From assembly GCA_013180625.2 (NCBI GenBank), contig SNVD02009130.1, positions 248,001 to 312,000 on the forward strand: a stretch of DNA of 64,000 nucleotides, read 5' to 3'. The DNA is from Boswellia sacra. Lineage: Eukaryota; Streptophyta; Magnoliopsida; Sapindales; Burseraceae. The notes below the pieces were generated by a model that saw only the letters and a program-made list of their open reading frames with translations, searched no databases and was not told the origin of the DNA. Numbering within the stretch: position 1 is the first letter of the stretch; each line of letters opens with the position of its first letter. Of the stretch, positions 6,171-47,256 are shown piece after piece. The translations under genes and the position numbers were made by a program.

Positions 6171-6352
6171 GAAGAGAAGACCTAGCATGAGAGAGAAAGG
6201 CCTGTCAACAAAGCCAAGGAAGACTGCCTGAGTACTAAACAAGGATTTCTCTTGCCTTAAGAGATCATAATTTGAAACCTCTTGGGAGGCGCAGGCAAGT
6301 CATCCTTGGCTACCCGACAAAACTCATATCCTCATGTAAGGCATCTCTCCTT
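6171..6352 (-). ncRNA. MIR169: miR169 precursor 1a
   Basis: Read on the minus strand, the 5' arm holds the mature miR169 (UAGCCAAGGAUGACUUGCC plus two more bases, 6292-6312). The 3' arm holds the star-side segment ending in CUUCCUUGGCUUUG (6210-6230). The lower stem pairs a CCTCATGTAAGG-type segment (6331-6342) with CCTAGCATGAG (6181-6191), giving a long imperfect hairpin with a loop of about 60 nt, the normal shape for this family. miR169 guides cleavage of NF-YA mRNAs in the cytoplasm after DCL1 processing in the nucleus. It lies downstream of hairpin 1b on the same strand, about 140 bp away, across an AT-rich spacer. Folding was judged by eye. Confidence 0.9.
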
Positions 6353-6492
6353 AACTTTAAGCTCCAATGCTTCTGCAATGCAAACTAAAAATTCTCTTAA
6401 TTTTATATTTATATATATAATTATATAATTATATATATAAATAAAGCGTAATATTGGAATTGCTAAGCTGATAGTAATATAATTTGTGGGTG

Positions 6493-6670
6493 AAGAAAAG
6501 AAGTTCTAACATGAGAGGAAGAGCCTGTCTAGATAGCCAAGGAATGACTGCCTGGTACCAGGTTTTGGTTTTAATCAATATTTTGAATCCTCCTGGGAAG
6601 GATCTGCAGGCAAGTCATCCTTGGCTACTAAACTACACACTTATCTTCATGTTAGACCTCTCTTCCTCTT
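6493..6670 (-). ncRNA. MIR169: miR169 precursor 1b
   Basis: The mature miR169 is canonical at 6607-6627 (minus strand), and the star arm is at 6534-6554. The lower stem pairs GAGGTCTAACATG-like sequence with the TTCTAACATGAG block near 6504-6515. The star arm read on the plus strand is itself miR169-like (UAGCCAAGGAAUGACUGCC), because the duplex is nearly palindromic. It is promoter-proximal: a TATA box lies 46 bp upstream. Probably co-transcribed with 1a. Confidence 0.9.
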
Positions 6671-6715
6671 AAATTAAGCATTCATGCATTCAACAATGGA
6701 TGCCAACACTAAGTG

Positions 6716-6726
6716 TCTATTTATAG
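6716..6726 (-). promoter_or_regulatory. TATA box of miR169 unit 1
   Basis: CTATAAATAGA on the minus strand, followed about 30 nt later by a purine start region and, 46 bp later, by the base of hairpin 1b. Equivalent boxes sit at the same place in units 2, 3 and 4. Confidence 0.7.
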
Positions 6727-7359
6727 CCGATAAAAGTGTAATGATGAGCATCTATATATAATTTACAATTTTACATGTCGTCCCATCAATAAGTTTTCTT
6801 ACCTCTACTTACTTTTACATATTTTTGATCTGCCACTTATCAGGTGCATGTATAATTCAAGAGGACAATGTAACGGAATACATACTTTTAGGTCGCATTG
6901 ACTCCGTATATAATTGAAATTAATTTACTTAATCAACCCATATGCGGCTCTAAAAAGCTGCTGGAAACCCCTCGAATGTTTAGAATATTTAGCAAAGTGG
7001 CAGTCCTGATCATGACCAAGAAATTTTGCTAGACAACTTGCTTTAGATAAGACCCTTTGGTTTCTCCAAAGTCCAAATGATATAAAGACTTTATGCCTTT
7101 CGCTTTCCGTTGACAATTCATTGATGTTAACAAGTGCATGCATTGTTTTGAGAATATTAGATTCGTAACTCTAGTTTGACGCAATTTAATTTTTGGGCAT
7201 TTTTACACCTTAGCTTTGCCGTTAATCATTCTAGTTTGGTTTGCAACATAATTGCATAAATCTTAATTTACTTCCTTGATTGAAATAATTTCTAGCATCA
7301 AGTCAAAATTTGGTATTCTCAAGCCAATATTTTACTATCTAGACAATAGGAAAACAAAA

Positions 7360-7761
7360 GGGTTAATTCTAATTTGCCCCCTGAGGTTAGGCCTAAAAAA
7401 ATTGAGGACCTCAGTTTTCTGAAATCTAAGAATGCCCCCTGAGGTTACTGTAGCGCCGTTGATTTAACGGAAAATGTATTAAACCGTTAGATTTAACGGA
7501 AAATGTATTGAATAATAACTTAATGCTAATATTAGATTTAACAAAAAATGTATTAAATAATAAATTAACGCTAATAAGTAGTAAAATAGACTATAATACC
7601 CTTTTCTAAATGGTTTCTAAAGCGTTAAGTTACTATTTAATACATTTTTCGTTAAATCTAACGGTGCTACAGTAACATCAGGGGGTAATTTTGAGTTTCA
7701 GAAAACTGAGGTCCTCAATTTTATGTTGGCCTAACCTCAGGGGGCAAATTAGAATTAACCC
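7360..7761. mobile_element. Mutator-like fold-back MITE, 402 bp
   Basis: The ends are long inverted repeats starting GGGTTAATTCTAATTTGCCC, and the inner arms (ACTGAGGTCCTCAATTTT, AACGGAAAATGTATT) also pair, so nearly the whole element can fold back. It is flanked by a perfect 9-bp target duplication AAAACAAAA (7351-7359 and 7762-7770). A 9-bp duplication with long TIRs points to the Mutator superfamily. There is no coding capacity. Confidence 0.85.
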
Positions 7762-7858: not shown

Positions 7859-8735
7859 TGTAAGTTTTGGATGTATGCAGTTATAAGAAATATAACAGTA
7901 AACTGTAAAGTAAATCGGCACAGGAGGATTTTTACGTGGTTCGGTTATAAAACCTACATCCAGGGACAGCCATAGAGCTGCAATTCACTCATTTCTTGTT
8001 TGTACAATCTTTATGATCTTTTACAGTGCTGACTCACCCTCACACACTGACCTAATCTTTGTAAAACAAACTCCCGTCAAGATCTTAAACTCTAGTGACA
8101 ATGCTCACTCTCTATCGCAGATAACTTAACAACACACTGTTAAGTTATACATAACAAACGACATCTGACGTTGAGTTACATAAACACTTAACCCGCAAGT
8201 TATCCCAAGTGCCTACTAACTCATACAGACCGAATCAACAACTCATATATGATTTCTACCTCTCATACATGAATCAAAGACTCATAAAATCAAAACAATA
8301 AAGACATTCCTCTTTGCGTTGAAGCTCTCTCTCTTTGTTGTTAGAATGCCGAAACAAAAACTCACACAACACACCACGTAATCTGCATACTCCGTTATGC
8401 AGAAATAACTTTGTATATATAGTGGTATGCCTAGACGAAATCTCCTAGAAATCCTGTAAAAATTCTAATCAAAATCATATTAGGATTAGGAGAAATAAAA
8501 TAGGAAGGAATATAATTAAACTCCTAAAGGAATTAGGACACAAATAAATATTCTCCTATTTTAACTAGGATACAAGATACTATATCCTAATCTAAGGAGA
8601 TATTCATTATAAATCAAATACTTCCTAAAATATACTTGTAGAAACAGTAAAATAAGAAACAAAATAATATTCTTGTTTTATCACAAGTTGAACAAAATTC
8701 ATAATGTGCATGGCACATGCACGTTAACACCAACA
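7859..8735 (-). repeat. Copia element 1, 3' LTR
   Basis: 877 bp, with TG...CA ends on the minus strand (TGTTGGTGTTAACGTGCATG at the right end, CAAAACTTACA at the left). It is the downstream LTR because the polypurine tract adjoins its right side. Confidence 0.93.
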
Positions 8736-8749
8736 ATCTCCCCCTTTTT
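8736..8749 (-). other. Polypurine tract of copia element 1
   Basis: AAAAAGGGGGAGAT on the minus strand, immediately before the 3' LTR. This is the standard position of the plus-strand primer of reverse transcription. Confidence 0.85.
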
Positions 8750-9142
8750 GGTAACTTGTGATGAAAACACTAAACTGTTTCTGATCAAAGAAAAACACAC
8801 ATGATAAGTTAGACATAACAATAAGCTATCATGAAATAGCAAACAGAAAATATTATGTGTAAAGAATTATCTAGTGTGCTGTTATTAATCTCATAACAGA
8901 ACACTATCAGAATTTGTATATCTTGCAAATAAAATGAAGTTGTCAAACTGATCAAACAACACATTAATCAATTCATGATACGAACAATCAGATCAGCAAT
9001 AAAATCATGATCAGAGCAAAAACATCTGAGCAAAACATTCATCAAAGCAAGATAACACAAACAGAGTAAAAACACAATGTATCAAAAAACACAAAGCAAG
9101 CATAAGCATAAGAAGTTCTTCTTACTCCCCTTTACTCCTTAC

Positions 9143-10715
9143 TTACATCCCTTGAGCATAAGAAATATAAACAAAGTTAGAAGTAACAGGGATATAGGAA
9201 TATAGAAACAAAAACAAATCAGAACAACTCCTTTTATCTCTCCCCCTTGATTTTAGCACAAGTGCCAAAAGCACTTTAATGAAGTCTTGGAGACTTTCGA
9301 ACTGGTGGGGAAGATGAACTGCCAGGACGCTTCTTGAATCTGCCAGCCTTCTCTTTATATCTCTTCCTAGTTGTGGTAGGAGTTGGCTGCTCACAAGCCT
9401 CAGGAGCAGGTGGCTCTGCAGTTGTTTCAGAAGAGGTGGCAGTGACTTCAACTACAACTCTATGAATCTCCTTCTCAAATCGCTCTGCAGTGGTTTCTGT
9501 TGTGGGTAACTCAACAGCAGTTTGTGCAGCTTGTCCTGCTGCAGGAATTTGTTCAGCTTCTGTAGGTAATGGTGCTTCTGGTTCTGGTATTTGCTCAGCT
9601 GACTTCTCAGGAACCACATTCTCAGTAGGTAATGGTGCTTCTGTTTTGCTTTAATTTCCTTCAAATCCTGCACAATCTCAGTCAAAGCAGAGTTGATCAA
9701 AGCAAGTTGTTCTTCAACATATTTCATTTGATTTTTCCTTACTCTCGTTGGCTTTGGTTCAAGTAGAGGCAAGTCAATCTTATCATGCAATCTGTGAAGA
9801 AATCCTTTGGTGATGGATTTAGACAGAATTTCTGTCTATTCCTTGGGGCTTATAGGAATGCTATGTTGCACAAAAATCCCTTGAATCAAGCAGAGAAACA
9901 CAAGCAAGTGATGGTCAGAATGATATGGACCTATCTGAACTATCATCCTATAGGCTAGAAAACCAAAATTTATTGGTCGATGGTGCCGAAGCAGTACAAA
10001 AATTTTACTCAGTCTTTCTGAACCTAATTTTGATGGGAAGAGAGAAGCCAATTGAACTATGCAATCTTATGCATCACTCTATACTTCTTCCTGAGGTACT
10101 GTTGATCTATACCATCTCTCGATTTCTATTCAATGTCTGTTCTACCCGTCAATTCCTTAATCACTTCAGCCATGTTAAATTCCTCATCTAAAGAATGCAA
10201 ACTGCTTATGGGAATGTCAAGGAATATGTTAATGACATTTGGAGAGAATTTAACGAACTTTCCTCTACAATAGACTTTGTGATAATGAAAGCTTTTTGGG
10301 TCATCAATGTCAGTAGTGATATTTGCATAGAATTCTTGAATGAAAGGCTTCACAGGGGGTAGGAAATTTGTTACCGTCCGAGTCCAGTAGATAGACTCAA
10401 GCATCTCACTCAGACCATAGGTGTTGAAATCTGTCAGTTTCACCAGCCTTTCTATCTATAGGTTCCTTTTTTAGGTGTATTTCACAAACTTCTGTTTGAT
10501 GGCTTCCGTAAGAAACTTGTTGAACTTTGTTTTACTTCGTCTTTCATCCTCTTTATTGGAACTTGATCATCCGTACTCATGGCGGTATCAACAGCGATCT
10601 CTGCATGTGCTTGTTGTGTTGGAGATGACGGTACACTGTTGTCACTGTCGTAACCAGAGTCATTCTGTGAAGATGAAGAACTGGTGGATTTTGAGGATTC
10701 TGTGTTCGTCGCCAT
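9143..10715 (-). pseudogene. Env-like / extra ORF of copia element 1
   Basis: A third coding region lies between RNase H and the polypurine tract. It starts at the ATG at 10715 with a Ser/Thr-rich N terminus (MATNTESSKSTSSSSSQND). It then continues, after a frameshift near 10540 and stops near 10450-10475, into a globular segment (10443-10126) with NFLPPVKPFIQEFYANI and YCRGKFVKFSP. This segment resembles the plant 'putative transposon protein' domain found in env-like ORFs of Sireviruses and Athila elements. The C-terminal part (9790-9276) is Pro/Glu/Thr/Gln-rich with a short helical stretch. No clear signal peptide or fusion peptide was seen. Function in the family is unproven. Confidence 0.6.
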
Positions 10716-11550
10716 TGTTAAGGTTTGTAATCTGCACAAAGTTCTCAGAACAAGAAGAGAAGCAAGACGAGGGATAGTGGAGAAACTGTTGAATGGGTAT
10801 GGAATGAACAAGAGAAGCCCTAAGCAGTTTCGTAATATACTAGGCTAATTTAAAAAATTTTGTTTTTAACAAAAAAATTAATGTTAATTTCCTTTCCAAA
10901 AACTGTTTCATAACTGACATTAATGAATAAAAATTCAAAATTTGATTCCCATTAGAATAGGGAATTCTAATAGAATTAGGATTCCCGCCACTGAAACTTC
11001 TTCCCCTCAATTCAATACAACTGACATGGCATTTTGACACATAGACACACAAGAAAAGTCAAATTTCAGATTGGCACAAAGAACATCGTATGTTATGAAA
11101 AATGTAACAAAAAACAGTTAACAATGACATAACAACAATATCTGAACATCATATGAATCATTTTAAGAAAGCATATTTCAAAGCTGTTTTATTTACTTTT
11201 ATTTTATTTTATCACTTAATCCAATTGAGTGATCAACTTGAGCATGCTTCTTACACACACAAAAGTTAGTCTCAATGTGAATTTTCTAAATAAATACAGT
11301 AGCTTTCACACATGTATAGAGGTAGCCCTTTTCCATTTGAGTGGGTGACCTCACCATGTTTCCCAGATACAATAAAGTTTCTCTCAATGGATGGCTTTCA
11401 CACATCATATACTGGTAGCTCTCTCTGTATTTTTCATTTTTAAACCAGTATTTTATCATTCACACAATTTTTGTATCACAGCTCACACATGCTTAATTAG
11501 AAGAAAACGTATGACATTACAGATACAATTAACATAACAGTAAACAGTGT

Positions 11551-14500
11551 TTATTCAGATAACTGACAGATGCCTAAGGCCTTTCTTAGATTTTCAAATC
11601 TTGTTGTATCCAATGCCTTAGTGAACAAGTCAGCCAATTGTTTATCAGTGGAGATGTGTTCAATGTGTATCACCTTAGACTCTACTAGTTCCCTTATTAA
11701 ATGGTATCTTATGTCAATGTGTTTTATTCTAAAATGCTGAATAGGATTTTTGGAAATATTTATAGCACTAGTATTATCACAAAACACAGTTATAGGCTTT
11801 TGTTCAATACCAAAATCACTCAACATTTGCTTCATCCACAATAGTTGTGTGCAACAACTCCCTGCTGCTATGTATTCGGCTTCAGCAGTAGATAAAGAAA
11901 CAGAAATTTGTTTTTTGTTGTGCCAAGAAACTAAGTTAGTACCAAGATAAAAACATCATCCTGAGGTACTTTTTTTGTCATCTGTATTTTATGCCCAATC
12001 AGCATCACTAAACCCTGCAAGATAATCATTTGTATCTTTAGAAAACTATATTCCATAATCATGTGTTCCATGAACATACATGATGATTCTCTTAGCTGCT
12101 ACCAGATGTGATTCTTTGAGATTTGCTTGAAATCTTGCACACAATCCTACACTAAAGCACAAGTCTAGTCTGCTTGCTGTGAGGTATAGCAGGCTGCCAA
12201 TAATGCTTCTGTACAAACTTGCATCAACAACTTTTCCTGTATTGTCTTTTGAAAGTTTAAGGCTAGTACTGATAGGAGTTTTCATTGGTTTTGATTTCTC
12301 AAGCCCAAATTTCTTTACAAGATCTTTTGCATATTTTGATTGAGATATGAATATCCCATCATTCATTTGCTTAACCTGCAATCCAAGAAAGAAATTTAAT
12401 TCTCCTACCATGCTTATCTCAAACTCTTCCTGCATCAACTTAACAAACTCATTAGTTTTGCTTTTGTTAGTTGATCCGAATACAATGTCATCCACATATA
12501 TTTGTGCAACAATAAAATAGTTAGATGCATGTTTGATCAAAGTCTTATCATTGCTGCCTCTTTTATAACCTCTGTTGATCAAAAAGTTCGTCAACCTTTC
12601 ATACCAAGCTCTAGGAGCTTGTTTCAAACTATACAAAGCTTTATGTAATTTGTACACAAAATCAAGATGTTTAGGATCTTCAAAACCTTTAGGCTGTTCA
12701 ACAAAAACTTCTTCATTGAGATAGCCATTTAAAAATGTTGTTTTAACATCCATTTGGTACAATTTAAAATCAAGCAAACAAGCAATTGCAAGTAGTAATC
12801 TGATTGACTCAAGTCTAGCTACTATTGCAAAGGTCTCATCAAAGTCTATGCCTTCTACTTTTGTGTAACCTTGTGCAACTAGCCTAGCCTTATTTCTTGC
12901 TACTTGTCCACTTTCATCAATTTTATTTTTGAATATCCATTTAGTTCCAATGACATTTGCATTTTCTGGCCTAGGAACTAATTCCCATACTTTATTTCTT
13001 TTAAACTGATTAAGTTCATCTTGCATAGCTTGAATCCACACATCTTCTTTTAAGGCTTCTTTCACATTTTTTGGTTCAACTAAAGAAACATAACATGCAA
13101 ATCTTACCTGATTTCTTACCTTGCTTTGAGTCTTCATCATGCCATCTGCTGTTCCAATGATAGAGCTTGTTGGATGTGCCTTCTGAATCCATGTGGGTGG
13201 ATCTTTCTTTTCATCTTCATCCCTGATTGAATTTCTGTTCAAATTTGAGTTGTCAGATGTTACAGTTACGTCGGATGTAATAGTAGTTGTTTTCTCTTTT
13301 ATAACAGAGTCATCTTTATTACTGTTGCTGTCTGAATCTGATTTCTCTATATCTTCTGTGAAGTTGGTTATGTTTTCCTCTTGTGAGTACTTTACATAAT
13401 CATCCAGATTATCAAATACTACATTTGCAGATTCCATGACTGCCTTAGTTCTCATATTGTAAACTCGAAACGCTTTGCTGTTTTGTGCATATCCCACAAA
13501 GACTCATTCATCACTCCTTGGATCCAATTTTTCTAACTGCTCTCTGTCATTTAAGATGTAACACCTACATCCAAAAACATGAAAATATTTCAAATTCGGT
13601 TTTCTACCTTTCAAAATTTCATAAGGTATCTGGTTAGTGCCAGGTCTAAGCAAAACTCTATTTGAAATATAACAAGCAATGCTTATTGCTTCAACCCATA
13701 GCCTTTTGGTCAACTTCTTGCTATTGAGCATCACTCTAGCCATCTCTTGAAGAGTTCTATTCTTCCTTTCCACAATGCCATTCTGTTCAGGGGTTTTGGG
13801 AGCTGAAAATTCATGATCAATTCCATGATATTTGCAAAAGTCAGCATAGCTAACGTTTTCAAACTCCTTTCCATGATCACTTCTTATCCTCACAATCCTG
13901 CCAATGTTCTTGTTTTGTTCGTTTTCAAGTTTAACACAAAGATTCCTGAAAGCTTCAAAAGTGTCAGATTTTTCTTTAATGAAATCAACCCAAGTGTATC
14001 TAGAAAAATCACCACACAAACAAATATGTATCTCTTACCTGTAATGCTTTCAATTTGCATAGGACCCATAAGATCCATGTGAAGCAAATCAAGTATTTTG
14101 GATGTGCTAAGATGTGGATTTGATTTGTGTGAACTTCTAATTTGTTTTCCCATTTGGCATGGTCTACAAATTTCATTAACTTTGTCATCAAGTTTAGGAA
14201 CTCTTTTTACAGCACCTAACTTAGTTAATTTAACCAAGTCTTTGTAATTTAAGTGTCCTAATTTTTGATGCCACAATTCTAAATCTGAAATCCTAGCTTG
14301 AAATGCAATATTTACCAAATAACAATTATCCGAAGATCTATTACCTTCTAGAATGCATTTACCAAAATTATCTAAGACCATGCATTTGTTTTGTGTGAAA
14401 TTAACAATATACTTGTTATCACAAATCTGACTAATACTAATAAGATTAGCTTTCAAACCTTCAACCAGCAAGACATTTTGAAAATTGGGTAGGCCTTTGA

Positions 14501-14621
14501 CATTCAAAGTGCTTTTACCAATGATCTTACTCTTTGCTCCATCCCTGCATGCTTTAAAATCTGTTAAAAAATATTTATTTCCAGTCATGTGCCTGGAACA
14601 ACCACTGTCAAAATACCACAA
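11551..14621 (-). pseudogene. Copia element 1 pol: protease, integrase, RT, RNase H
   Basis: The minus-strand polyprotein is interrupted by a few stops. Protease: WYFDSGCSRHMTG at 14618-14580 (active-site D-S-G). Pre-integrase zinc-binding region LWHQKLGHLNYKDL near 14275. Integrase core: DHGKEFENV and PEQNGIVERKNRTLQEMAR within 14019-13504. RT: a 483-residue frame (13497-12046) with the YVDDIVFGS catalytic motif, [17 protein letters not shown] and [11 protein letters not shown]. RNase H: LSTAEAEYIAAGSCC and VFCDNTSAINISKNP down to the stop near 11551. Order INT-RT-RH is diagnostic of copia. Stops near 13501 and 12045 make it inactive as it stands. Confidence 0.93.
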
Positions 14622-14687
14622 ACCGTTAGAAGTATGTTCAAGAGTAGTAAGAGCAACATGGCATACTGTCTTGTCTTTCTTAACTCA

Positions 14688-16424
14688 CTACAACTGTGAT
14701 TTTGGTAACAGTTTGAACTGTTTTGATCTTTTATGTAAAAGATTCAACAATTTAAAGCATCTAGGTCTAATATGTCCCTTTTTACCACAAAAATAACAAA
14801 TTGGGATAAATTTCCTTACCTTTTCAGGACTGGATTTGAAAGAACTCAGAGGAGAAACAAATGTCTCATTGCTCTTGGAATTAGGACTTGACTTTAAAGA
14901 GTTAAGTTCAAAATTCTTACCTGATGTTGAAGCTTTAACAAAAATAGTTGTTGATGAAGATGCAACATTACCTTCTGTATACCCCAATCCATGTTTGTTA
15001 GAGTTGTCTCTTCCAAAGCTTAAGATCTGATCAAGTTTGGCTGCTCCAATTTTGAGTTGATCAATACACCTTTTGCTTTCAACCAGTTCTATTGTAATTT
15101 TCTCAATATGTGCTGTTTTGTCTGTCAAAATAGTCTCCAGTTCTGTGATATGGTTTCCAGCATAGGATTTTTCACATTCCAGCACCTCAGTTTTCTTTTT
15201 TAAGATTTTGATTTCTTTTTTCTGAATCAGCCATTCACTATATAGTGCATTGTATGTTTCTTGCAACTCTTCATAGTATTCTAGTCCATCTTCTTCATCA
15301 GAATGATCAACACTGGTTCTGTAATTTTTTGTTATGTCAGACATAACAGCTTTCCCTTTATCAGCTGCAGATGCAGTAAAAGCAACAAAATTGCTCATGC
15401 AATCTTGATCTTCTGAATCCGATTCTGATTCATCACTCCATGTTGCTATTAGGCCTTTGTTCTTCTTCTTAAGATTAGCACATTCAGACTAAATATGCCC
15501 ATAACTGGAACATTCATAGCACTGAATCTGCCCTTTCTTTTCAGGTTGTTTTGGCTTCTTCTTGTCATTCTCCTTGTTAAACTTTTTGAATTTTTCATCA
15601 CTTGAGTTTGATGGCTTTCCTTGATTCTTTTTCCTGAAATTTCTTTTCATGAACTTGATATAGTTTTTTGTTAGAAAAGCAATCTGTTTAGAATCTGTTT
15701 CATCAAGCTCATCATTACTTTCATCATTAGATTTTTTAGTTTTCACATTGAATGCAATGCTTTTACCTTTTTGCTTCCTAGTACTTTGATTAATTTCAAA
15801 ATTTTGGAGAATGCCAATCAGTTCATCAACCCTCATCTCATCAGTATTTTTAACTTCCTCAATGGCTGAAATTTTAGGTTAAAATTTATCTAGGACAGAC
15901 CTAATTATTTTACTAACAATTTCTGCATCAGTGAAAGTTTTTCCAAGCATGTATGCAGAATTTGTGATGTGACATATCTTAGAGTAAAACTTAGAAATTG
16001 ATTCATCCTCATGCATCATTAAATTTTCAAATTAAGAGTTAAGTCTCATCAATTTAGATCTTTTAACCAATGTTGTACCTTCATGTTTTACCTCAAGTAT
16101 GTCCCATGCTTCTTTGGCCACTTTGCACCTGGAAATCTGTCCGAAATTGTTTAGGTCCACTGCAACAAAAATTGCATTGAGAGCCTTTGAATTCCAGCTG
16201 GAATATCGGTATTCTTTATCAGTCCAGTCATCCTCGGGTTTGGGTTCGGAATCACCAAAAGCATTCACCTTCGTTGGCGGTGTCCATCCTTTGAGTACAC
16301 TAGTCCATGCCCTGTCATCAAGAGATTTGATATACATCATCATTCTTACCTTCCAATATGAGTAATTACTATCATCAAGAATAGGTGGTTGTGTTCCGGA
16401 TCCTCCATTGCGAATAAACTCCAT
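14688..16424 (-). pseudogene. Copia element 1 gag
   Basis: Starts at ATG 16424 (MEFIRNGGSGTQPPILDDSN) with the YSYWKVRMMMYIKSLD segment typical of copia gag (DUF4219/UBN2). A CCHC knuckle CYECSSYGHI lies near 15510, then a Lys/Glu-rich predicted coiled coil near 15180-15260. A second knuckle CYFCGKKGHIRPRC lies near 14775. In-frame stops occur near 16032, 15880 and 15489; at least the last fits a Gln codon changed to TAG, as expected from C-to-T change. The long coiled-coil C-terminal gag fits Sireviruses. Confidence 0.85.
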
Positions 16425-16473
16425 CCTTCCAGATCAACGTGATCGTTTTCTTCACTTGTCTATCAGTGAACAT

Positions 16474-16485
16474 GCTCTAATACCA
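16474..16485 (-). other. Primer binding site of copia element 1
   Basis: TGGTATTAGAGC on the minus strand, two bases after the 5' LTR. It matches the complement of the initiator methionine tRNA 3' end with one difference from the usual TGGTATCAGAGC. Confidence 0.85.
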
Positions 16486-16487
16486 AT

Positions 16488-17364
16488 TGTAAGTTTTGGA
16501 AGTATGCAGTTATAAGAAATATAATAGTAAACTGTAAAGTAAATCGGCACAGGATGATTTTTACGTGGTTCAGTTATAAAACCTACATCCATGGACAGCT
16601 ATAGAGCTACAATTCACTAAGTTCTTATTTGTACAATCTTTAGGACCTTTTACAGCACTAACTCACCCTCACACACTGACCTAATCTTTATAAAATAAAA
16701 TCCCGCCAAGATCTTAAACTTTAGTGACACTGCTCACTCTATGTTGCAGATAACTTAATAACACATTGTTAAGTTATACATAACAAACGACGTCTGACGT
16801 TGAATTACATAAACACTTAACCCGCAAGTTATCCCAAGTGTCTACTAACCCACACAGACCTAATCAACAACTCATATACGATTTCTACCTCTCATACATG
16901 AATCAAAGACTCATAAAATCAAAACAATAAAGACATTCCTCTTTGCGTTGAAGCTCTCTCCCTTTGTTGTTGGAATGCCGAAACAAAAACTCACACAACA
17001 CACCACATAATCAGCATACTCCATTATGTAGAAATAACTTTGTATATATAGTGGTATGCCTGGACGAAATCTCATAGAAATCCTATAAAAATTCTAATCA
17101 AAATCATATTAGGATTAGGAGAAATAAAATAGGAAGGAATATAATTAAACTCCTAAAGGAATTAGGACACAAATAAATATTCTCTTATTTTAATTAGGAT
17201 ACAAGATACTATATCCTAATCTAAGGAGATATTCATTATAAATCAAATACTTCCTAAAATAGACTTCTAGAAACAGTAAAATAAGAAACAAAATAATATT
17301 CTTGTTTTATCACAAGTTGAACAAAATTCATCATGTGCATGACACATGCACGTTGACACCAACA
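16488..17364 (-). repeat. Copia element 1, 5' LTR
   Basis: 877 bp, same length as the other LTR and colinear along its whole length. It is upstream of the primer binding site on the minus strand and would hold the element's promoter. Confidence 0.93.
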
Positions 17365-18227
17365 GAATATATAGAGCTGAATTTTAAAATGAATATTAAT
17401 TGTACACACTATATATGCATATGCAATTTGCTAGAGTTAAATACTCATAAGTGAAAAACTAGCATTAACATATAAATGGTGAAGATAATAAGCAAGTAAA
17501 AGTAGCATTATTATATGCTTATAAAGTTGTTATTAACCCCAATTTTGTATTCCAAATAGTTAATATAGTTAATGTAGACTTGATTTGACAATCAAAGTCA
17601 TGGATGATATGATTAATGACAATTATACTAAATCATCCATGAAATCCACTTGGAATACAAAGCAAGTCTAATTGAAGCTGAGCTGATGTTCATTGGAGAT
17701 GTTATCTCTGTTTTTAATAAGTACTTCAATTATCTTATGTCTAGACCTCTTTTCACTTTCTAGTAAATTATTTTACCTTTCTAGGTTCTTTTCCTTTGAC
17801 ATTAACTAGAGACGATTTTGACTTTATGTCTAGTGGGGAAAGTTAAACAATATATAGCAAACAAAAATGTATATTGTTTAAAGGATTATGGTGTATCAGG
17901 TAGACTAATTTGCAGGTGGCTAGTCCATTTATATTATATGATAATTTTGGTCATTATTGAATCTAACAGTACTAATATATTAGTACAATATTCATATATG
18001 GTTAATGCGTATTCCTTTGTCATATTTCATTTTATTATGAATCAAATCCTTGTATTTATTAATAAATATAACTAGATAAAGAAAGATGAATGGATTTGAT
18101 TCTTTAATTGACCATTGAAAAATTGACCAAGTCCCTCTCTTCTCACTTTTCTCTCATTCTCTTCTGATGCATGCATATGATTCTACTGGAGACCACATCA
18201 ATCCATGAATATGATTTTCTTTGTTCA

Positions 18228-19511: not shown

Positions 19512-19694
19512 GAAGAAGAGAAGGCCTAGCATGAGCGGAAAGCGCCTGTCAGCATAGCCAAGGAGACTGCCTGAGAACCAAATAATAAGGGTTCTAGCCT
19601 TAAATTGTCTCAACCTGAAACCTCCTTGCAAGGCGCAGGCAAGTCATCCTTGGCTACCAAACAATACTCTTAGCTTCATGCAAGAACTCTCTCC
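19512..19694 (-). ncRNA. MIR169: miR169 precursor 2a
   Basis: Canonical mature miR169 at 19636-19656 on the minus strand, and the star arm reading CAGGCAGTCTCCTTGGCTA at 19555-19573, which matches the star sequence known for miR169i-n type precursors. The lower stem pairs TTCATGCAAGAACTC with GGCCTAGCATGAG. The terminal loop region of about 60 nt lies between the arms. It is downstream of 2b with a spacer of about 90 bp. Confidence 0.93.
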
Positions 19695-19782
19695 TTCGTT
19701 AAATTCAAGCTCTTAATGCGATGCTAAACAATACCTTTAGGAATCTGACAGTAGCAATTTAGATAAATATAATTTGTTGAAG

Positions 19783-32415: not shown

Positions 32416-32465
32416 AAACAAACAATTCCACCAACTCCCTTTTCTTTACTGTATGAGTTTTATTG

Positions 32466-36130: not shown

Positions 36131-36199
36131 TCAAGTTCATCAGAAGAACCTAGCAGAATGTAGAAACATGAAAGTGTAATTAGAAAGCACTAACTGAAA

Positions 36200-38572
36200 G
36201 AACAGAAGAATATCCACCAAGAGAGAGTGAGAGACATTAGAAAATGATGTTTTTGAGGAACAGGGCGATTTTGTTGCCGGCCAGCAGGAACCTGCACTGG
36301 AGCTGCTGGAGCTGTTGTTGCAGGCTGAAGAAGCTGTTCTTCCAACTCAGCACCTTCAAGTTCTTCAAGTTCAGCTTCCAACTCATCCTGCAATGACAAC
36401 CATGTTAAGACTTTCTGTCATAAGTACATATACACTCCATACAATAGCAGAAAATGTGAAAGAAAATGTTCTCTCAGAAGATTTTCAATATGCATCAGAA
36501 AATATCAACCTCATCAAAATCAGCCGCAGCACCAATAGGAGTCGACAATGCTTCCTGAATCTGTTTCATGTTCTCTGTCTGCTCATTGATCTCATCCATG
36601 GTCTTGTCGACATCATCTATATTCCTGAAAACAACCCACCATTTTCACACACATTAGCCGTGATTATTGTCTAATTTCTATGGTGAAAGATTTGTGTGAT
36701 TCTTCAGTGTTCCTCATGAAACACGAGGATAAGTGATCATTGTATTATATAGACTTCAGGTTGAAAATCATAATCAAGAAAAAAGTATATTTGCAAATCC
36801 ATAGTTCTCTATTACAGCCAGTATAACCAAGCTCGGAGAAAGCGAACTGCAATGTAAATCAAACATTTAAAAAAGGAAGAAAAAAGGGCCAAGTTAGAGG
36901 TAATCATGGACTTAGGTAATGCATAGTAGTTCTAAGTAGATTTGCAAAAGTTACAAACTCTGCTGGTTAACCGTGTATCAGACCATGTAATTAATTTCCA
37001 AAAGGATAAAAAACTTGCATTATTGAAAGCAAGTAAAAGAATAAAAGAAAAAACACACACAAATAATTGATTCCATTAGCATGGATATAAAGTAACAACC
37101 AATAGAGTATACCATGGAAGTGAAAGTTATTTTGATAAAAAATATTTGAAATGAAATTGAAGAGATACATACGTAGCTTTCTGCATTGCCTTCATAGCAG
37201 CTGCTCCTGTCCTCAATGCATCAACAGTCTCAGTTGTGGCTTTTGCGCCTTCTAACATTATCATCTGTGACATTATACATAGTATAAGCTGATGCAGCAA
37301 AAGCTCAATAACAGTTGCAAAGTTTCATATGCACCTGATCATGAATTCGTAATTGGAAATTGCCAAGTTGCTCTATTTATTGTTCGTATAGCCTCTTCCT
37401 CTTCAAACATTGTATCACCGCTGCATGCATGGATCATAGGTGAATACTTGACCAATAAACAACAATAATTTTTTACTAAATAATATTTAACATAAGACAG
37501 AAAAGTCAAACTGAATTCTTATAACTGGTTTTTCACCTTTTCTATTTTGATAGTTGCAAGAGGACTTTAAACATCCAGGGATAAAACAAAACAACAATAA
37601 ACTAGTACGAACTTTTGCTTTTGACATCATTTTAGCATTTAAAAGAATACTCCTAGTATTCCATTATTTAAGCTCAAAATTAGGAACAGAAGGACTTGTA
37701 TACATCAAAATGCAGGGTGGGAAGAATAGACTGGTTTCAGTGACAATGGCAATAAAATTTCCTTGCACTTTACAAGCATACCTCTTTTGTTCTTCGCTTT
37801 GGAAAATTCCTTCGCCTTTTCAAGCTCTGCAGAAGCCTTTTTCAGGAGTACTTTCTCCTTTTTCTCAAGCATTTCAAGTGTCTACAGATTGGACAAAAGA
37901 TATGATTTATGATAAGCATAATGACAAAGAACACAGAAGCATAATAGTAAAGCGCAACAATATTATGTTCATGAAATATATAACTAAAGCATGCAACAGT
38001 TGACATAAAATAAAATGATATCACCACAACAGCCATCCTTATTTGCTTTGCTTATAAACACAAACTTTCTACGTTCGTGAACTGTGTAAACGAAAACCAC
38101 AATTCCATTACCTTAACATGCAACAACTACGGAAAAAAAAAAATTCAAACACGGGCCTAATGCCCTTCATCCTTCCAAAGGGTTAGTATAACATCTGAAA
38201 AAGTCTTCTATGGGATTACCCCAATATGATTCAGAGGGATTTGTATAGTCGAACTAAAACCCCTATTAGAACATCAAAGAATCTCTTCTCATGTGATTTC
38301 CACTTCTAATTCAACTCTATCATTCCCTCCCCAACCAAATTAATTTATCAGCCAAGATCATAATACAATCCAAAAACCCAATATAGAAAAACACAAAGAG
38401 ATATATAAATCAAAAAATCGAATCCAATATCAGTTACACAGAAAAAGATAGATTAATTAATTAATAAATAAGTGAAATCAAGAATTGTAAGCAATAATAC
38501 CTTATTTAACTTGTCAAGCGTGGTTAGAGCATTGGTTTCCTGTTTAGGTTTCCCAAAAAGCCGATTAAACAT
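36200..38572 (-). pseudogene. VPS32/SNF7 ESCRT-III gene, nearly whole (captured)
   Basis: Exon 1 (38501-38572) encodes MFNRLFGKPKQETNALTTLD and KLNK, ending at a GT donor. Further exons give TLEMLEKKEKVLLKKASAEL (about 37880-37785), IQCLKRKRLYEQ then QLGNFQLRIHDQ-type sequence (about 37420-37338), MIMLEGAKATTETVDALRTG (about 37262-37172), DDVDKTMDEINEQTENMKQI (about 36625-36510) and DELEAELEELEGAELEEQLL to PQKH (36390-36240). This is the exon series of plant SNF7/VPS32 (CHMP4), the main ESCRT-III filament protein. In the third exon a Gln codon is replaced by TAA (about 37380), and the C-terminal end is unclear, so it cannot encode a full protein. Confidence 0.85.
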
Positions 38573-38769
38573 GGTTGATTCTCGGCGATTATTTAAAACC
38601 CTCGATCTTCCCTATCACAATTAAACACCAACGTGAATAGATCATCAAAAGCCCTAATTTCTAAATTCCACAACCGATCTACCTAAAACGACGAAGTTTG
38701 GATGATCGAAATCGAAACGATTGATCCCTTGAACAAACGTAAGGAGTAAAAATTCGGTTAAAATTAATT

Positions 38770-39104
38770 AAAAATACACGCATACCTGTTAAATTAATTG
38801 ATTGGGTGATTTAATAGAAAGTATATATGCAGCTTCAAAACAAGACAGTAGGGGGAATTACAGAAGAACAAGACAAGATTCGAGAGGGAAATCGAGAGGG
38901 AAGACAGAATCGAGAGGGAAATCGAGCGGGAGGATAGAATCGAGAGGGAAATCGACAGAAATTGCAAGAAGGACGAGGGAAAATTGCAAGCGGGAAGAGT
39001 TGGGATTTTTAGGGTTGTCGCGGGAAAGGTCGAAAAAGCGAGAGGAAAGGTCGATCGAGGAGGTTTCCTTTTATATTTTCTAATTTCTTTTTTATTTTTT
39101 AATT
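38770..39104 (+). repeat. Purine-rich repeat block at the right end of CACTA 2
   Basis: Short tandem repeats of AATCGAGAGGGAAATCGAG-type sequence (unit about 24 bp, 38878-38960) create an open frame (38802-39083) rich in Ser, Arg, Gly and Lys. No known family is visible. I regard the frame as a by-product of the repeat, possibly from the 5' leader of the captured VPS32 gene. Confidence 0.5.
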
Positions 39105-39266
39105 AGTTATATGTGTCACATATTCAATTTACGTCACAGAGCTTAGTCCATTTTTTACTAGGTGTGACATATATTTAGTTTGACCGATTTTTATGTTTAC
39201 ATATGTGTCATTCTCTTAGAAACCGACACAAAATTTGTGACACAAAAACACTATTTTCTTGTAGTG

Positions 39267-42200
39267 CCAGCCCAATCAGCATCAGTGAAAAGCTCAATCT
39301 CTTTGGTGGTATTTTTCTTAAAAAACAACCCTTTTCCTGGTGACATTTTGAGATACCTAAGAATTCTATTTACTGCCTCTTGGTGAACTTCTTTCGGATC
39401 ATTCATAAACTGACTTATAAAGCTAACAGCGAACCCAATGTCAGGTCTAGTATGGGAGAGGTAAATGAGTTTTCCCATTAGGCGTTGGTACCCTCCTTTG
39501 TCAATGGGTGGACTCTCTTCTTCTAAGCATGCTTTATAACCAGGTTCCATAGGTGTGTCAGCTGGCTTACACCCTAACATACCTGTCTCCTTGAGTAGGT
39601 CCAAGACATACTTTCGTTGAGAAACAACAATCCCTGCTTTTGACCTAGCTACCTCCATTCCTAGAAAATATTTGAGATATCCTAGGTCTTTAATTTCAAA
39701 TTCTTTAGCGAGTCCCTTCTTTAGATTCTCAATTTCTTCATGGAAATCTCCGGTAATAATTATATCATCCACATACACAATCAGAATAGAAATCCTCCCA
39801 CTTGTAGAGTGTTTGACAAACATGGTATGATCGGCTTGCGCCTGTATGTACCCATGTTGCTTAACTGCTCTTGTGAATCTATCAAACCAAGCCCTTGGTG
39901 GTTATTTGAGTCCATAAAGTGATTTTTTAAGTTTGCACACTTTGTGGACGTTGTTCTTGGTCTCAAATCCAGGTGGAATCTCCATATATACTTTTTCCTC
40001 TAGGTCTCCATTTAAAAATGCATTCTTGACATCCATCTGATTTAGAGGCTAGTCAAGATTATCAGCTAGTGAGAGTATAACACGAACGGTATTTAACTTA
40101 GCAACCGGGGAGAAGGTTTCTTGGTAGTCAATACCGTAAGTTTGAGTAAATCCTTTTGCTACCGATCTGGCCTTATACCGATCTATACTTCCATCTGGTT
40201 TGTATTTGACGTTGAAAACCCATTTACGTCCCACTGGTCATTTTCCTTGTGGCAATTCATAGAGTTCCCATGTGCCATTCTTCGTAAGGGCTCTAATCTC
40301 TTCTTCAATAGCTGCCCTCCACTCAAGCTTACCTAGAGCTTCTTGAACATTTTTAGGTATTTCAACAGTAGACATATTAGTAACAAAGGCACGATATTGA
40401 GAGGACAATCCCTTATATGAAACAAACTGATGTATAGGATGTTGAGTGCAGGATCTTACTCCTTTCCTTAATGCAATAGGGATGCCTAAGTCATTATTAG
40501 TGTGAAAGTTATGAGTTGTGTTACCTGGAAGTTCTGAACTCGGATTAGTCGGATTAAACTCTTGAGTTTGCTCAGAAAATGTTGGGGACTCCTCTTCTAG
40601 GACCTTTTCCCTCCTTGAATAAACACGTAACTCTTTGTTGGTAGTAGTATGATTGTGGATTTCTGGAGTGAGTGTATTGGAAAACATTTCTGAATTTTTC
40701 GATGTGAGAATAGGCAGGGTAGGCTCAGATGAAGGTCTATATGGTTCGTAGGATGCCTTTTTTGAAGGAGACTCAGTTTCCAACTCATTTTGTAGACTCG
40801 GATTAACCGTTGGAACATTAGTGGCAGGAGTAAAGGTAGGCTCGGGTATTGTGACATTAGGCAGCCAAAAACACGTTCATTTGTGTTTGAGTTCTCCCCC
40901 TGAATGTGGGTTTTATGATAATAGGGTTGATTCTCAAATAAGGTTACATCCATAGTGATATAGGTTTTCTTGGTAACAGGAGAGTAACATTTATACCCTT
41001 TTTGAGTGGAGGAATATCCTAGAAACAAACATTTTATGGCTCTAGGATCAAGTTTGCTAGGGTTAGGTTGGTGGTTATGGACAAAAGTAGTGCACCCAAA
41101 TATTTTTAGTGGAAGGAAAGAGAGTATTCGAAGCTGAGGATAGGATTGGTAAAGTGTTTGCCATGGTGTTTGAAAATGAATAACTCTAGATGGCATTCTA
41201 TTGATGAGATATGTAGCTGTAAGGACGGCCTCCCCCTAAAAATAACTTGGGACATTCATGGTGTACATAATGGATCGGGCCACCTCCAAGAGGTGTCTGT
41301 TTTTTCGTTCTGCAACCCCATTTTGTTGGGGTGTATTCACGCAAGAACTCTGGTGGATTATTCCGTGGGTTGAAAAGTAATCTTCTAGGATTGAATTGAA
41401 ATAATCTGTGGCATTGTCAGTCCAAAGGATATTGATTTTAGCTTGAAACTAATTTTGGACCATGCTAAAGAAATTTTTCAAGATGATACCTGCATCTGAT
41501 TTTTGTCTCATTAAATACACCCACGTCACTCTTGTATGATCATCAATGAAAGAGATAAACCACTTAAATCCATAAATGTTATTAACCCGAGAAGGTCCCC
41601 AAATATCACTATGAATGATTGAAAAAGGATGAGATGTTTTATAACCTTGGATTAGATAATTGTTTGTCACATGTTTTGAAATTTGACATGCCTCACATTG
41701 AAAGTGTTTGGTGGTTTTATCATTGAATAAATTGGGAAACAACTTTTTCAAATAAAGAAAATTACGATGTCCTAATCTATAATGCCACAACATAATAGCA
41801 TTTTCGTTATTGGACAAACCAGGAAATGACACACTACTAGCAGATAGAGTTTGTTCATCAGGATTACTATGAGTCTTGAGAAGATAGAGTCCACCAAACT
41901 CCTTAGCATTGCCAATCGTCCTCCCCGATTCCAAGTCCTGAAATTCACAATGAGTAGAGAAAAATTTAGTAACACAGTTCATATCCCTTGTAAGTTTACT
42001 AATAGACAATAGGCTATAAGATAATTTGGGAACCAACAAGACAGATTTTAGGGTTAGATTATCGGAAATGACCAATGAACCCATTCCTTCCACCTTGGAT
42101 AGAGACCCATCAGCTATTCTCACCATAAAGTCTCCTGAATAAGGTTTGTACGTATGGAAAAGTGAAGCATTACCAGTCATGTGATCCGACGCACCAGAGT

Positions 42201-42430
42201 CTATTATCCAAGAAGTTAAGGTTTCCATATGTGATTTAAAAGCTACTACAAGATTACCTCTTTGCGCCACCAAACTTGTGCTCACAATAGGATCATGTTG
42301 AGAGGGCTGTGGTGCTATTGAAGAGGAACTGAACATTTTTTTAAGTAGTTCTATCTGTTCTTTGCTAAATAGATTTGTCTCATATGTCAGCTGTGGTATT
42401 TCTCTGGCTGAGGTAAAACCATGACTTTCT
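39267..42430 (-). pseudogene. Copia element 2 pol: protease, integrase, RT
   Basis: Protease WIIDSGASDHMTG near 42210. Pre-integrase LWHYRLGHRNFLYLKKLF near 41790. Integrase begins SHPFSIIHSDIWGPSRV near 41630 and continues, after stops near 41448 and 41230, to LKIFGCTTFVHNHQPNPSKL (41110). A linker with poor frames follows. RT starts [20 protein letters not shown] (40234) and includes LIVYVDDIIITGD near 39780. RNase H begins LFTDADWAG at the CACTA junction (39267). At least four stops or frameshifts are present. The order INT-RT-RH identifies copia. Confidence 0.9.
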
Positions 42431-43364
42431 GCTGCTCCCTTTGGCTTCCAATCTGGGGGTTTGCCATGGAGTTTCCAACACTTCTCACGGGTATGACCAG
42501 GTCGATTGCAGTGATCACACCAAGGTCGTTCACCTCGCTTGTTCATGCGTGGATCATGATTGGATTTTCCATTCGAAGTAAAATTCCTGGACACCAAGGC
42601 AGATCCTTCTGAGTTAGATGTGAGAGGAGAAGGATCATCAGATAACATCACCTTACGACGTCCCTCTTCACGTCGTACTTCAGCAAATGCCTCCTCTGTT
42701 AAAGGAAAAGGATCTTGAGCTACCACACAACCACGAACTTCATCAAGATTCCGATTTAGCCCAGCCAGAAAATCATACACCCGTTCACTTCGAGCTTGCG
42801 CCGTTGTTTAACAATACACTCAGCACAACATGAGTCATCATCATTGAATAGGTCAAGTTCTTGCCATAAATCTTGGAGATCAAAAAAGTACTAAGTAACT
42901 CAACTTGTACCTTGCTTTAAAGCTTTTAGTTTTAACCGGAGTTCAAATATTTAGGAAGCATTGCCAAGATCTGAATACATTCTGCGGGCTGCATCCTAGA
43001 CTTCTTTAGCCGTTTTGAAGAACAAATAGCGATGACTAATCTTGGGCTCCATAGAGTTGATAAGCCATGCGAGAACAATAGAGTTTTCAGCCATCCAAGT
43101 ATTATAGATGGGACTATTTGGTGAGGGAGCAGCAAGCTCACCTGTGATGCAACCAAATTTGCCTCGACCGCAGATAACAATTTTGACAGATTGTGCCCAC
43201 TGTAGATAGTTTTTTCCATCCAACTTGTGGGCTGTGATATGAAGAGAAGAAAGATCACCACCGGAAAGAGTGGTGATGGAGGAAGAGTGAGGTGTCTCAT
43301 GGGACTGGCCAGAAGTTGGGGATTCAGGATTATCTCCTGTCATGGCAGCACCATATTTCACCAT
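42431..43364 (-). pseudogene. Copia element 2 gag
   Basis: Starts at ATG 43364, 27 bp after the primer site. It contains ITAHKLDGKNYLQWAQSVKI (UBN2-type gag) near 43240, breaks near 42990-42790, then resumes with MYDFLAGLNRNLDEVRGCV and a CCHC knuckle WCDHCNRPGHTREKCWKL near 42520-42470. Two or more stops or frameshifts separate the parts. Confidence 0.87.
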
Positions 43365-43390
43365 TTTTGGGAGAAGAAATCAGATTTCCT

Positions 43391-43402
43391 GCTCTGATAC
43401 CA
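43391..43402 (-). other. Primer binding site of copia element 2
   Basis: TGGTATCAGAGC on the minus strand, directly adjoining the 5' LTR. It is the exact complement of the initiator methionine tRNA 3' end used by plant LTR elements. Confidence 0.9.
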
Positions 43403-43709
43403 TAAAGATAATTTAGGAAAAAAGAAAATATATTAACTTTATTTCTGAATAAATTTTCAGTACAAGGTACAAGGAAATATATAGGAGAAAGACAGCTGGT
43501 CTGCCATACAAATCTCCCATAAATAAGGAAAGAAAATAATAATCCCTTTGATCAAGGGATGTATAATAAAGACAACTAATCAACCAGATTTAGTCACTGA
43601 CTAAATCTGTTTATTTCAGCTAATTAATTCTTGAAAATCAGAAAATTAATTCCTAAAAATCAGAACATTGATTCCTAAAAATCAGAATATTAAATGTAGA
43701 ATTTCCACA
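43403..43709 (-). repeat. Copia element 2, 5' LTR
   Basis: 307 bp, colinear with 29714-30020 with only a few substitutions by eye, so the copia insertion appears younger than copia element 1. Confidence 0.92.
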
Positions 43710-44345: not shown

Positions 44346-44467
44346 AAAGGTTGTAAAACGATACCCTTTGCATCACAACGTTTCATTGATGGAGGCATGT
44401 GCATGTACGTATTTAAGGATAATTTTGCAACATGTATGTGTGAAATAACTATATATGATTGAGAGAT

Positions 44468-44505
<38 letters not shown>

Positions 44506-46785
44506 CAATTTATTTTTTCCCTTTTTAACTAACAATTATTAGCCTAAATTTTTTTAAATAGACAAAACTCAAATTAGTACATATCTTGTGAGAGATGGGA
44601 TGTAGATTTTCTCTCCAATTTGATTTGATTAAAAAAACTACTGATTTGAGAACAGGTTCTGAAGTTTTTAAGTAGAAAACTCATATTCTTACGAAGGCAC
44701 AAATTTGAGCTTAATATTGTTCACACTTGATAGCAATGTTATATGTCCATAATTTTTATCCCAAATCATGAATCTCAAATATTGTGGTATTGATTTAAGA
44801 TTGAATAATAATACTCTTCTCAAAATTTATCGTAAATGATGTATATTTTAATCAATATTTACCAAGCTGATAATGTGATGATATAATGAGAGATATGGTA
44901 CCTTTAACTTCATGTTATGTTATTTGGGATATATAATTTTGGAATGTGTATTGCTACTTTTTAAAATTAGCTATCACATTATTTATTATATCATCACATT
45001 ATATAATTAATGCAAACAATTTGATATACAAATTTAGGATAGAAAATTGAGATGAGTATTATTATTCTTATTCATCTCCTATCTAGTATTTCCATGTACT
45101 CAAAAGATCTTTGATTTAAAATTTTTAATTTTTCTCCAAAATACAGTTCTTTTTAATTGAACTTTATGTAATTCTTAGAACCGATCTTAATCGCACCATA
45201 CTTCAAAGTTATACATAGAACGGGCAAACCACATCAAGGTCTATTAGCCAAGCTCACAAGCAAGCCAATTGAAGCAAGCAAATTAAGCTCTGGTCCATGT
45301 CACGACTTGCGATGTTTAGCACTCTTCTCTTCTAAACTTCATTTTAATACACGTATGGACCTATCTGACTTCTCTACCATTTCTAATAATTATCTGACCT
45401 TTCGATATCCTTTGACATTATACGATTTTGACTTCACACTTACATTCACATAGATGGAAAGAAGAAGAATATATATCAAGAAAGTGTATATTTTCTTGGG
45501 CGACGGTATGATATTGATAAGGCTTTAATTTGCCATGTAGAATCACTAGGCGGGTGCATCTCCTCACTTTTGTATTGTATTAAGGCTCCCTAGTTTTCAG
45601 TTTGAGAATAACACGCAAATTTAAACAGTAGTCCCTTCTCAATAGCGTATAATTGTATTAGATTGTCAAATATATGAAGTGATGACATAACCAATAGCGT
45701 ATTAATTGTAAATTAATGTCACATCGTTAAGAATGTATAATTTGAAATAAAATTTTAAAATTTGTAATTTTCAATTAATTTATATTTAATTTTTAATTAA
45801 AAATTCAAGTTAAAATATATTATATTTTATCCTTAACTTTTTAATCATTACAATATCACCTCATTTTAGATGATCTCCAACAAATACAATGAACTAAGAG
45901 CTATGGGTGATCTATCTTATTTTTATGTAAGATTTGCAAAGTCAGTTTTTTGAAATTGTTTGAATTAATAGTTTCATATGATCTAGGAGATTTGGATTAT
46001 ATCATTCTATTCAGGCATTACGATTTGGCTAATCAGCAATTATTATGTTTCATATTTAGGAAATTAAAAGAAAAAAAATTGAAATACTGTGACATGAACG
46101 ATCCAAAAACGTCCTTACGTAATCTTTTGGGAAAAAAGAGGCAGTTAATTTGATTTCACCCACCTGTACAGACCTTTTACCTTAATTTACAAGCAATATT
46201 GGATAAGAAATTTTCACATACCCACTAAAATTGACTAATTAATTACGAAATCATGTCCTTAAAAAATGGATCTCGTGTTTGTGAATTAAATCAAATAATC
46301 GGGAATTTTGAGGAAATTACGGAGCCGTTAAAATATGTAAAAAGGTGATAATCCCATTACTAAAAAGAGTCCGCAAGAAATCACATCTATTCCCAAACTC
46401 TCATTAGAGAAAAAAAAAATTACATCCACATATAAATATTAATAATTCATAAATATTAATTTGACACAAATTTATAATAATTTTGGGATACAAGTCATTC
46501 CTTCTTTCTCTTGTCACATCTACTTAAACAGTAATGCTACACGTACAACTCATTTACAACCAATTTTCTTGTAAACTGAGTTGGCAAAAATTCATTAGAG
46601 AGGAAAAAAAATGAAAAATAAAAGTTATATCTCCAATAGAATTTTGTTAACTCAAATCCCTAAAGAAATTTGATTAGAAATGAGTTGTACGTGTACTATT
46701 ATTCCTATCTAAAATAAGCTTGAAGAGTGGATGGATGTAATGTAAATATGGTGATTGGTGGAGTGCTTTCACTAAAGGACTTATA

Positions 46786-46978
46786 GAGGAAGAAGAGAAA
46801 GCCTAGCATGAGAGAGAAAAGCCAGTCAGAATAGCCAAGGAGACTGCCTGAGAACCGAAAAGGGGCTTCTATAGCTAGCCTTGAGTTTCCATAACTTGAA
46901 GTAACCGCTTACGAGGAGCAGGCAAGTCATCCTTGGCTACCAGACAAAACTCGCATCTTCATGTATGACCTTTCTTCC
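46786..46978 (-). ncRNA. MIR169: miR169 precursor 4a
   Basis: Canonical mature miR169 at 46919-46939 on the minus strand, and star arm CAGGCAGTCTCCTTGGCTA at 46832-46850. The lower stem pairs GGTCATACATGAAG with GCCTAGCATGAG. The loop is about 65 nt. Duplex and star match miR169i-n type precursors. Downstream of 4b by about 85 bp. Confidence 0.93.
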
Positions 46979-47061
46979 ATAATTAAATTACCTAGCGTGA
47001 ATGGAATTGCTGGTGAAGAAAATTACTTGACAGAAGGAGATAATTTAATTAATTTGTTGGT

Positions 47062-47256
47062 GAAGAAAAGAAGGTCTAACATGGGAGGCAAGAGGTTGTC
47101 TAGATAGCCAAGGAGTGACTGCCTGCTACTGCCATCAAGGGTTTTTTATTTAATCAATGTTTGGAATTTTGAAATTAACCACTTGGAAGGATCAGGCAAG
47201 TCATCCTTGGCTACAAAACTAGGCTCTTATCTTCATGTTGGACCTCTCTTCCTCTT
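47062..47256 (-). ncRNA. MIR169: miR169 precursor 4b
   Basis: Canonical mature miR169 at 47193-47213 (minus) and star arm at 47105-47125 (CAGGCAGTCACTCCTTGGCT plus A). The lower stem pairs AGAGGTCCAACATGAAG with GGTCTAACATGGG. Promoter-proximal, 51 bp downstream of a TATA box. The star arm read on the plus strand again resembles miR169 itself. Confidence 0.93.

Follow-up and report, generated by a model that had tools for sequence, protein, structure and literature searches.

In Arabidopsis, miR169h-n share one common mature sequence and the genes i/j, k/l and m/n lie in tandem; overexpression of the tandem m/n precursors lowered NF-YA2, NF-YA3, NF-YA5 and NF-YA10 (PMC3485258). Ath-MIR169i-n has been treated as a single cluster, syntenic between monocots and dicots, and the survey that did so gives 6 microRNAs in 5,522 bp as the largest Arabidopsis cluster (PMC2812943), which would be MIR169i-n itself. 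The mature sequence given for members i, j, l, m and n is exactly TAGCCAAGGATGACTTGCCTG, and that given for the star of i and m is GGCAGTCTCCTTGGCTATC (PMC2945783). Many copies are usual in the family, which counts 14 members in Arabidopsis, 33 in poplar and 25 in grape (PMC5708078). Here, we describe a MIR169 locus in a 64,000-base stretch of Boswellia sacra contig SNVD02009130.1 (the window hereafter), which carries four pairs of MIR169 hairpins, all eight on the minus strand, over a span of 41 kb. We consider it very probable that they form an enlarged cluster of the MIR169i-n type, in a plant nuclear genome, made up of four two-hairpin minus-strand MIR169 genes.

An Rfam scan of the window, which has 36.7% G+C and zero N, placed MIR169 precursors at eight positions and returned no family other than MIR169 above gathering score, with MIR169_2 (RF00645) at or above that score on the minus strand at seven of the eight. 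Named from left to right, the hairpins of pair 1 are 1a (6171-6351, mature arm 6292-6312, 60.5 bits to RF00645) and 1b (6494-6666, mature arm 6607-6627, 59.6 bits), and those of pair 2 are 2a (19515-19695, mature arm 19636-19656, 61.7 bits) and 2b (19783-19950, mature arm 19891-19911), the latter being the only minus-strand place under the cut-off, at 37.2 versus 50 bits. Pair 3 comprises 3a (28774-28954, mature arm 28895-28915, 59.2 bits) and 3b (29046-29226, mature arm 29167-29187, 55.2 bits), and pair 4 comprises 4a (46792-46978, mature arm 46919-46939, 64.7 bits) and 4b (47065-47252, mature arm 47193-47213, 58.7 bits). Six mature arms are identical to the 21-mer TAGCCAAGGATGACTTGCCTG, carried on the 5' arm, while that of 3a differs by one change and that of 3b by two.

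Folding each interval on the minus strand, the check proposed in a preliminary description of this DNA, paired the two arms in all eight cases and put the miR169-like arm on the 5' side. Relative to a set of 100 dinucleotide shuffles per hairpin, z ranged from -3.0 to -8.0 (-4.9 for 1a, -8.0 for 1b, -4.6 for 2a, -3.5 for both 2b and 3a, -7.0 for 3b, -7.1 for 4b and, weakest of the eight, -3.0 for 4a), and none of the 100 shuffles was as stable for seven hairpins and one was for 2b. A well-paired duplex of mature and star strands tolerates about five unpaired bases, and between 1 and 5 mature bases are unpaired in the minimum-energy folds, most of them in 3b (5) and 2b (4). Searched with up to three mismatches, a common miR169 21-mer occurs at seven places in the window, all on the minus strand, and in none of 100 shuffles; 3b, with more changes, is missed. 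A profile built from the eight found no further copy above the inclusion threshold on the minus strand of the window (next match, E = 0.054), and the mature 21-mer has 0 occurrences in viral and 0 in prokaryote contigs. Rfam matches and folds thus agree on the eight hairpins and four minus-strand pairs that the preliminary description had reported, and all six of the canonical mature arms it had listed are present.

The hairpins also vary among themselves in the way a microRNA precursor does, with mean pairwise identity falling from 96.4% in the mature arm to 86.0% in the star arm, 77-78% in the lower stem, 58% in the loop and 47-49% in the flanks. Between pairs 1 and 4, the mature and star arms have changed at 2/81 sites versus 89/416 elsewhere, and the mature arm alone at 0/42 versus 91/455. 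The same holds between pairs 1 and 2 (arms 4/79, rest 93/409; one-sided Fisher P = 0.0001), pairs 4 and 2 (5/80 and 86/407; P = 0.0006) and pairs 4 and 3 (6/80 and 72/364; P = 0.0045). Between pairs 2 and 3, no constraint on the arms is detectable (8/80 versus 117/1025, P = 0.44), and 2a and 3a compared alone give 2/40 versus 85/672 (P = 0.11). Pairs 1 and 4 are thus clearly constrained, but since 2 and 3 parted no constraint can be detected. This last result, together with the score of 2b below the Rfam cut-off on the minus strand and surroundings that consist mostly of transposons, would suit an array that has mostly become a relic with few or no expressed hairpins. We regard such an outcome as very improbable in view of the arms spared between pairs 1 and 4 and in the three further comparisons, even if the constraint that these record could be old and lately lost.

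Alterations are concentrated in three hairpins: 2b in the star arm, 3a in both mature and star arms, and 3b in the mature arm, whereas in 2a the mature arm is canonical and the star differs from the Arabidopsis one by a single base. About five hairpins (presumably 1a, 1b, 2a, 4a and 4b) are probably clearly intact and three doubtful, a division that is a matter of judgement rather than measurement. Because mature or star arms are altered in three of eight hairpins, and because pairs 2 and 3 lack detectable arm constraint since their parting, the earlier suggestion that the array raises the dose of an NF-YA repressor is probably overstated. The locus serves in this respect as a warning that hairpin counts overstate dose.

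The pairs share a common anatomy. Within each, the order on the minus strand is b then a, with spacers of 142, 87, 91 and 86 nt in pairs 1 to 4. Upstream of b, all four carry a block in which CTATAA, lying 59-66 nt ahead of the b hairpin with the boundaries we chose, is followed by TTGGCATCC and TGCATG, each unchanged in 4/4. The putative TATA elements lie on the minus strand at 6715-6728 in pair 1, where the element marks the start of the shared promoter-like block, at 20006-20019 in pair 2, at 29277-29290 in pair 3 and, as TATAAG, at 47306-47319 in pair 4, and transcription may start near TTGGCATCC. In rice, RT-PCR supports a miR169n start that lies 130 bp ahead of the microRNA (PMC2670843). 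Since one shared TATA block precedes each b and only 86-142 nt part b from a, we infer that each pair would be one bicistronic gene with its own promoter.

An unrooted tree of the eight hairpins splits type a from type b with support 100/99, and one change of the a/b label suffices in every one of 200 bootstrap trees; when the labels were shuffled, 13/500 replicates were as low as observed. Because the hairpins divide into these two types, the most likely order is that a two-hairpin gene arose before being duplicated as a unit. The tree further joins 2a with 3a and 2b with 3b (each 100/99), and an alignment of units 2 and 3 covers about 1.1 kb surrounding the pair, at 84.8% identity, as well as additional flanking blocks. 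Blocks that are contiguous in unit 2 (17452-17640 and 17640-18239) are parted in unit 3 by about 3.4 kb (23810-27217), apparently an insertion in unit 3 or a loss from unit 2.

Three long terminal repeat (LTR) retrotransposons interleave with the pairs, as the preliminary description had noted for retrotransposons in general. These retrotransposons are plant-like and, together with the MIR169 genes, mark the DNA as that of a plant. Element 1, of copia type, occupies 7859-17364 on the minus strand, with an LTR divergence of 0.058 and a clean target duplication, GAATA. Element 2, also copia, lies on the minus strand at 29704-43709 (LTR divergence 0.050), with no target duplication seen. Element 3, of gypsy type with reverse transcriptase-RNase H and a chromodomain, spans 47576-62206 on the plus strand with other elements inside it; its exact ends are estimates, its LTR divergence is 0.050 and 0.049 in two parts, and its target duplication is doubtful. 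Units 2 and 3 have diverged by 0.136 and 0.146 in two blocks, 2.3 to 3 times the LTR-pair divergence of 0.049-0.058, and because of this excess the array would, on equal rates, have been complete before any of the three elements arrived.

The same data bear on whether haplotypes or repeats were wrongly set in a row during assembly. Tandem repeats are prone to misassembly in general, yet same-type hairpins differ by 8 to 25% between pairs, each pair has distinct flanking sequence, the target duplication of element 1 is clean and the window is free of N, so that we judge an artefact extremely unlikely.

In the enlarged MIR169i-n-type cluster that we favour, each gene would start at its own TATA promoter shortly before b and run through b and then a. 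Cutting of each long stem by Dicer-like 1 would free a 21-nt 5p miR169 of the h-n type, and this microRNA would direct cleavage of NF-YA messenger RNA. The array may have grown in two steps, a hairpin doubling that produced the a-b gene and then tandem copying of that gene, the copy linking 2 and 3 being the youngest; the three retrotransposons would have inserted later, outside the hairpins and TATA blocks, widening the gaps from about 3.5 kb to 13-18 kb. The transcripts, their bicistronic nature, their processing and their targeting of NF-YA are predictions from sequence. In favour of the reading as a whole, mature and star arms agree with Arabidopsis reads, and the tandem Arabidopsis m/n precursors repress NF-YA (PMC3485258).

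Several observations weigh against this interpretation. The hairpin tree is unrooted. The TATA motif was picked after inspection of the sequence, further TATA-like strings occur close to pairs 1-3, and TATA-rich sequence also lies in the 142-nt spacer of pair 1, so that 1a could have a separate promoter. Compensatory change is weak, affecting 2/46 consensus pairs with an unfavourable covariation term of +1.64, and was dropped as proof of structure for that reason. Finally, strand assignment is not uniform across the evidence: MIR169_5 (RF00865) scores more bits on the plus strand than MIR169_2 does on the minus at all eight places, and 3b and 4b have the better fold and more G-U pairs on the plus strand.

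The last two points belong to a distinct proposal, namely that the plus strand, or both strands, work, each hairpin yielding a reverse-complement miR169 resembling TAGCCAAGGAGACTGCCTG as proposed for rice RC-MIR169p/q. MIR169_5 passes on the plus strand at 8/8 places, with 58.5 to 88.2 bits (for example at 28794-28934 and 19535-19675), and plus-strand folds are stable as well, with z from -3.4 to -7.9. The star arm read on the opposite strand is itself miR169-like, two bases shorter in most copies. As in rice, a miR169-like 5' arm thus occurs on both strands of one hairpin; RC-osa-miR169p and q are DCL1-dependent and p-1 is AGO1-enriched, whereas opposite-strand products here are a prediction, and the excerpted report adds that the rice reverse-complement forms are identical to ordinary miR169 members, making their source hard to tell (PMC3479107). 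Bit scores from two Rfam models are not directly comparable, and E-values divide evenly, being better on the minus strand at 1a, 1b, 4a and 4b and on the plus strand at 2a, 2b, 3a and 3b. We therefore judged the strand from the sequence instead.

On that footing, the minus strand is the likelier main strand, because its mature arm is the best conserved (96.4% versus 86.0% for the star arm, the would-be plus guide), because of the balance of G-U pairs and because the shared TATA block lies on the minus side. G-U pairs, which are lost on the opposite strand, number 64/521 in minus folds and 33/485 in plus folds, and the minus fold is both more stable and richer in G-U in six of the eight hairpins. 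No TATA position common to the four pairs was found in the plus-side upstream stretches. Plus-strand miR169-like products are possible, but we doubt strongly that the plus strand, alone or alongside the minus, is the one at work. More generally, the higher of two Rfam bit scores can fall on the opposite strand.

A short repeat of about 65-85 bases, which we call element E, adds a further lead on how the array was built. A profile search located six plus-strand copies, all oriented alike, at 3675-3742, 17744-17824, 22543-22605, 27327-27412, 45364-45439 and 62567-62645, that is, between all neighbouring pairs and beyond both end pairs; two of them, at 22.5 and 27.3 kb, lie between pairs 2 and 3 with no pair between them. 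The copy at 17744 was absent from profile building and was recovered at E = 5.3e-9, but it sits in the block shared by units 2 and 3 and so is not independent of that at 27327. For one query, matches at 3690, 62567 and 27321 reached 3e-9, 5e-7 and 2e-5, against a best E-value of 0.003 in 50 block-shuffled windows. This layout fits tandem duplication, perhaps through unequal crossing-over at E, and because two copies lack a pair between them and others lie beyond both end pairs, pairs that were lost or lie off the window would fit too; we take it as a lead only. A bolder version, in which the array is part of a larger MIR169 array in active turnover, direct repeats of E bound its units and promote unequal crossing-over, and both strands of each hairpin supply different miR169 forms as two guides tuning NF-YA, seems to us unlikely.

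The distance to the next hairpin downstream is 1192 nt for element 1 (hairpin 1b), 477 nt for element 2 (3b) and 323 nt for element 3 (4b). The gap between pairs 1 and 2 is 12.8 kb, or 3.3 kb without element 1, that between pairs 3 and 4 is 17.6 kb, or 3.6 kb without element 2, and that between pairs 2 and 3 is 8.8 kb. From its position near 3b, element 2 might be supposed to have cut off pair 3 and caused its decay, but this idea is weakened by element 3, which lies closer still to the intact pair 4, and also by the surviving TATA block of pair 3. Genes for bHLH proteins and a carboxypeptidase reportedly neighbour MIR169 clusters, and neither was found here among reading frames of at least 80 residues: all 17 such frames outside the three elements are without a Pfam match. 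Frames of that length touching the elements number 87, and the eight that were scanned all carry transposon-type domains.

Other repeats occur in the window. Within element 3, 53826-56056 holds LINE-type endonuclease and reverse transcriptase frames. A self inverted repeat of about 400 bases (75%) just before element 1, at 7360-7761, is probably a fold-back element, and a palindromic repeat at 30700-30802, with sub-threshold matches to several microRNA families (MIR2593 at 45.3 bits, cut-off 96.2), is probably a fold-back repeat in element 2. At 816-946 and 2058-2188, a 131-base direct repeat, 95% identical and 1.1 kb apart, perhaps marks the ends of a small LTR element.

One stretch of DNA shows in this way how a microRNA cluster may grow, by doubling inside a gene and then by tandem copying of the gene, and shows which copies stay under selection. 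It also illustrates that later retrotransposon insertions can stretch a cluster while sparing its hairpins and TATA blocks.

Set beside described systems, the locus is closest to Arabidopsis MIR169i-n, with which it shares the 21-mer, the arrangement in tandem pairs and, in 2a and 4a, 18/19 bases of the i and m star; 3a and 3b match that star at 17 positions, 2b at 15, and 1a, 1b and 4b at 12-13 ungapped. Arabidopsis also makes a second small RNA, miR169i.2-5p, just below the mature arm (PMC2945783). Its 22-nt register is the best place in seven of eight hairpins, but only in 2a, 2b and 3b does it outscore every one of 200 shuffles, and no convincing match to miR169i.2-3p was found in the eight. 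The preliminary description compared the locus with the tandem pairs i/j, k/l and m/n, which have been treated as one cluster in Arabidopsis and hence a locus of the same kind, with three pairs versus four and without the 41-kb span produced here by retrotransposons. Soybean regions on chromosomes 9 and 15 likewise hold tandem copies, some intact and some decayed to MIR169-like remnants (PMC3481472), but three and two MIR169 genes are named there, and the excerpted account describes neither a-b pairs nor intervening retrotransposons. Rice MIR169n/o is tandem as well, but consists of two genes separated by 3.7 kb, whose stems exceed 300 nt (PMC2670843). A banana miR169 paper makes no mention of tandem arrangement, chromosome or duplication.

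Calling the expansion unusually large, as the preliminary description did, is fair against surveyed maxima of 6 microRNAs per cluster in Arabidopsis, 8 in rice (MIR395) and 4 in poplar (PMC2812943), and less so in that the array is of the same kind as Ath-MIR169i-n with at least one more pair. We noticed no larger MIR169 array in the literature, going by titles and the openings of abstracts, which does not show that none is in print. On present evidence, the locus, well preserved in part, would be a larger member of the known MIR169i-n kind of cluster, bigger than the MIR169 clusters in the literature compared here and otherwise ordinary.

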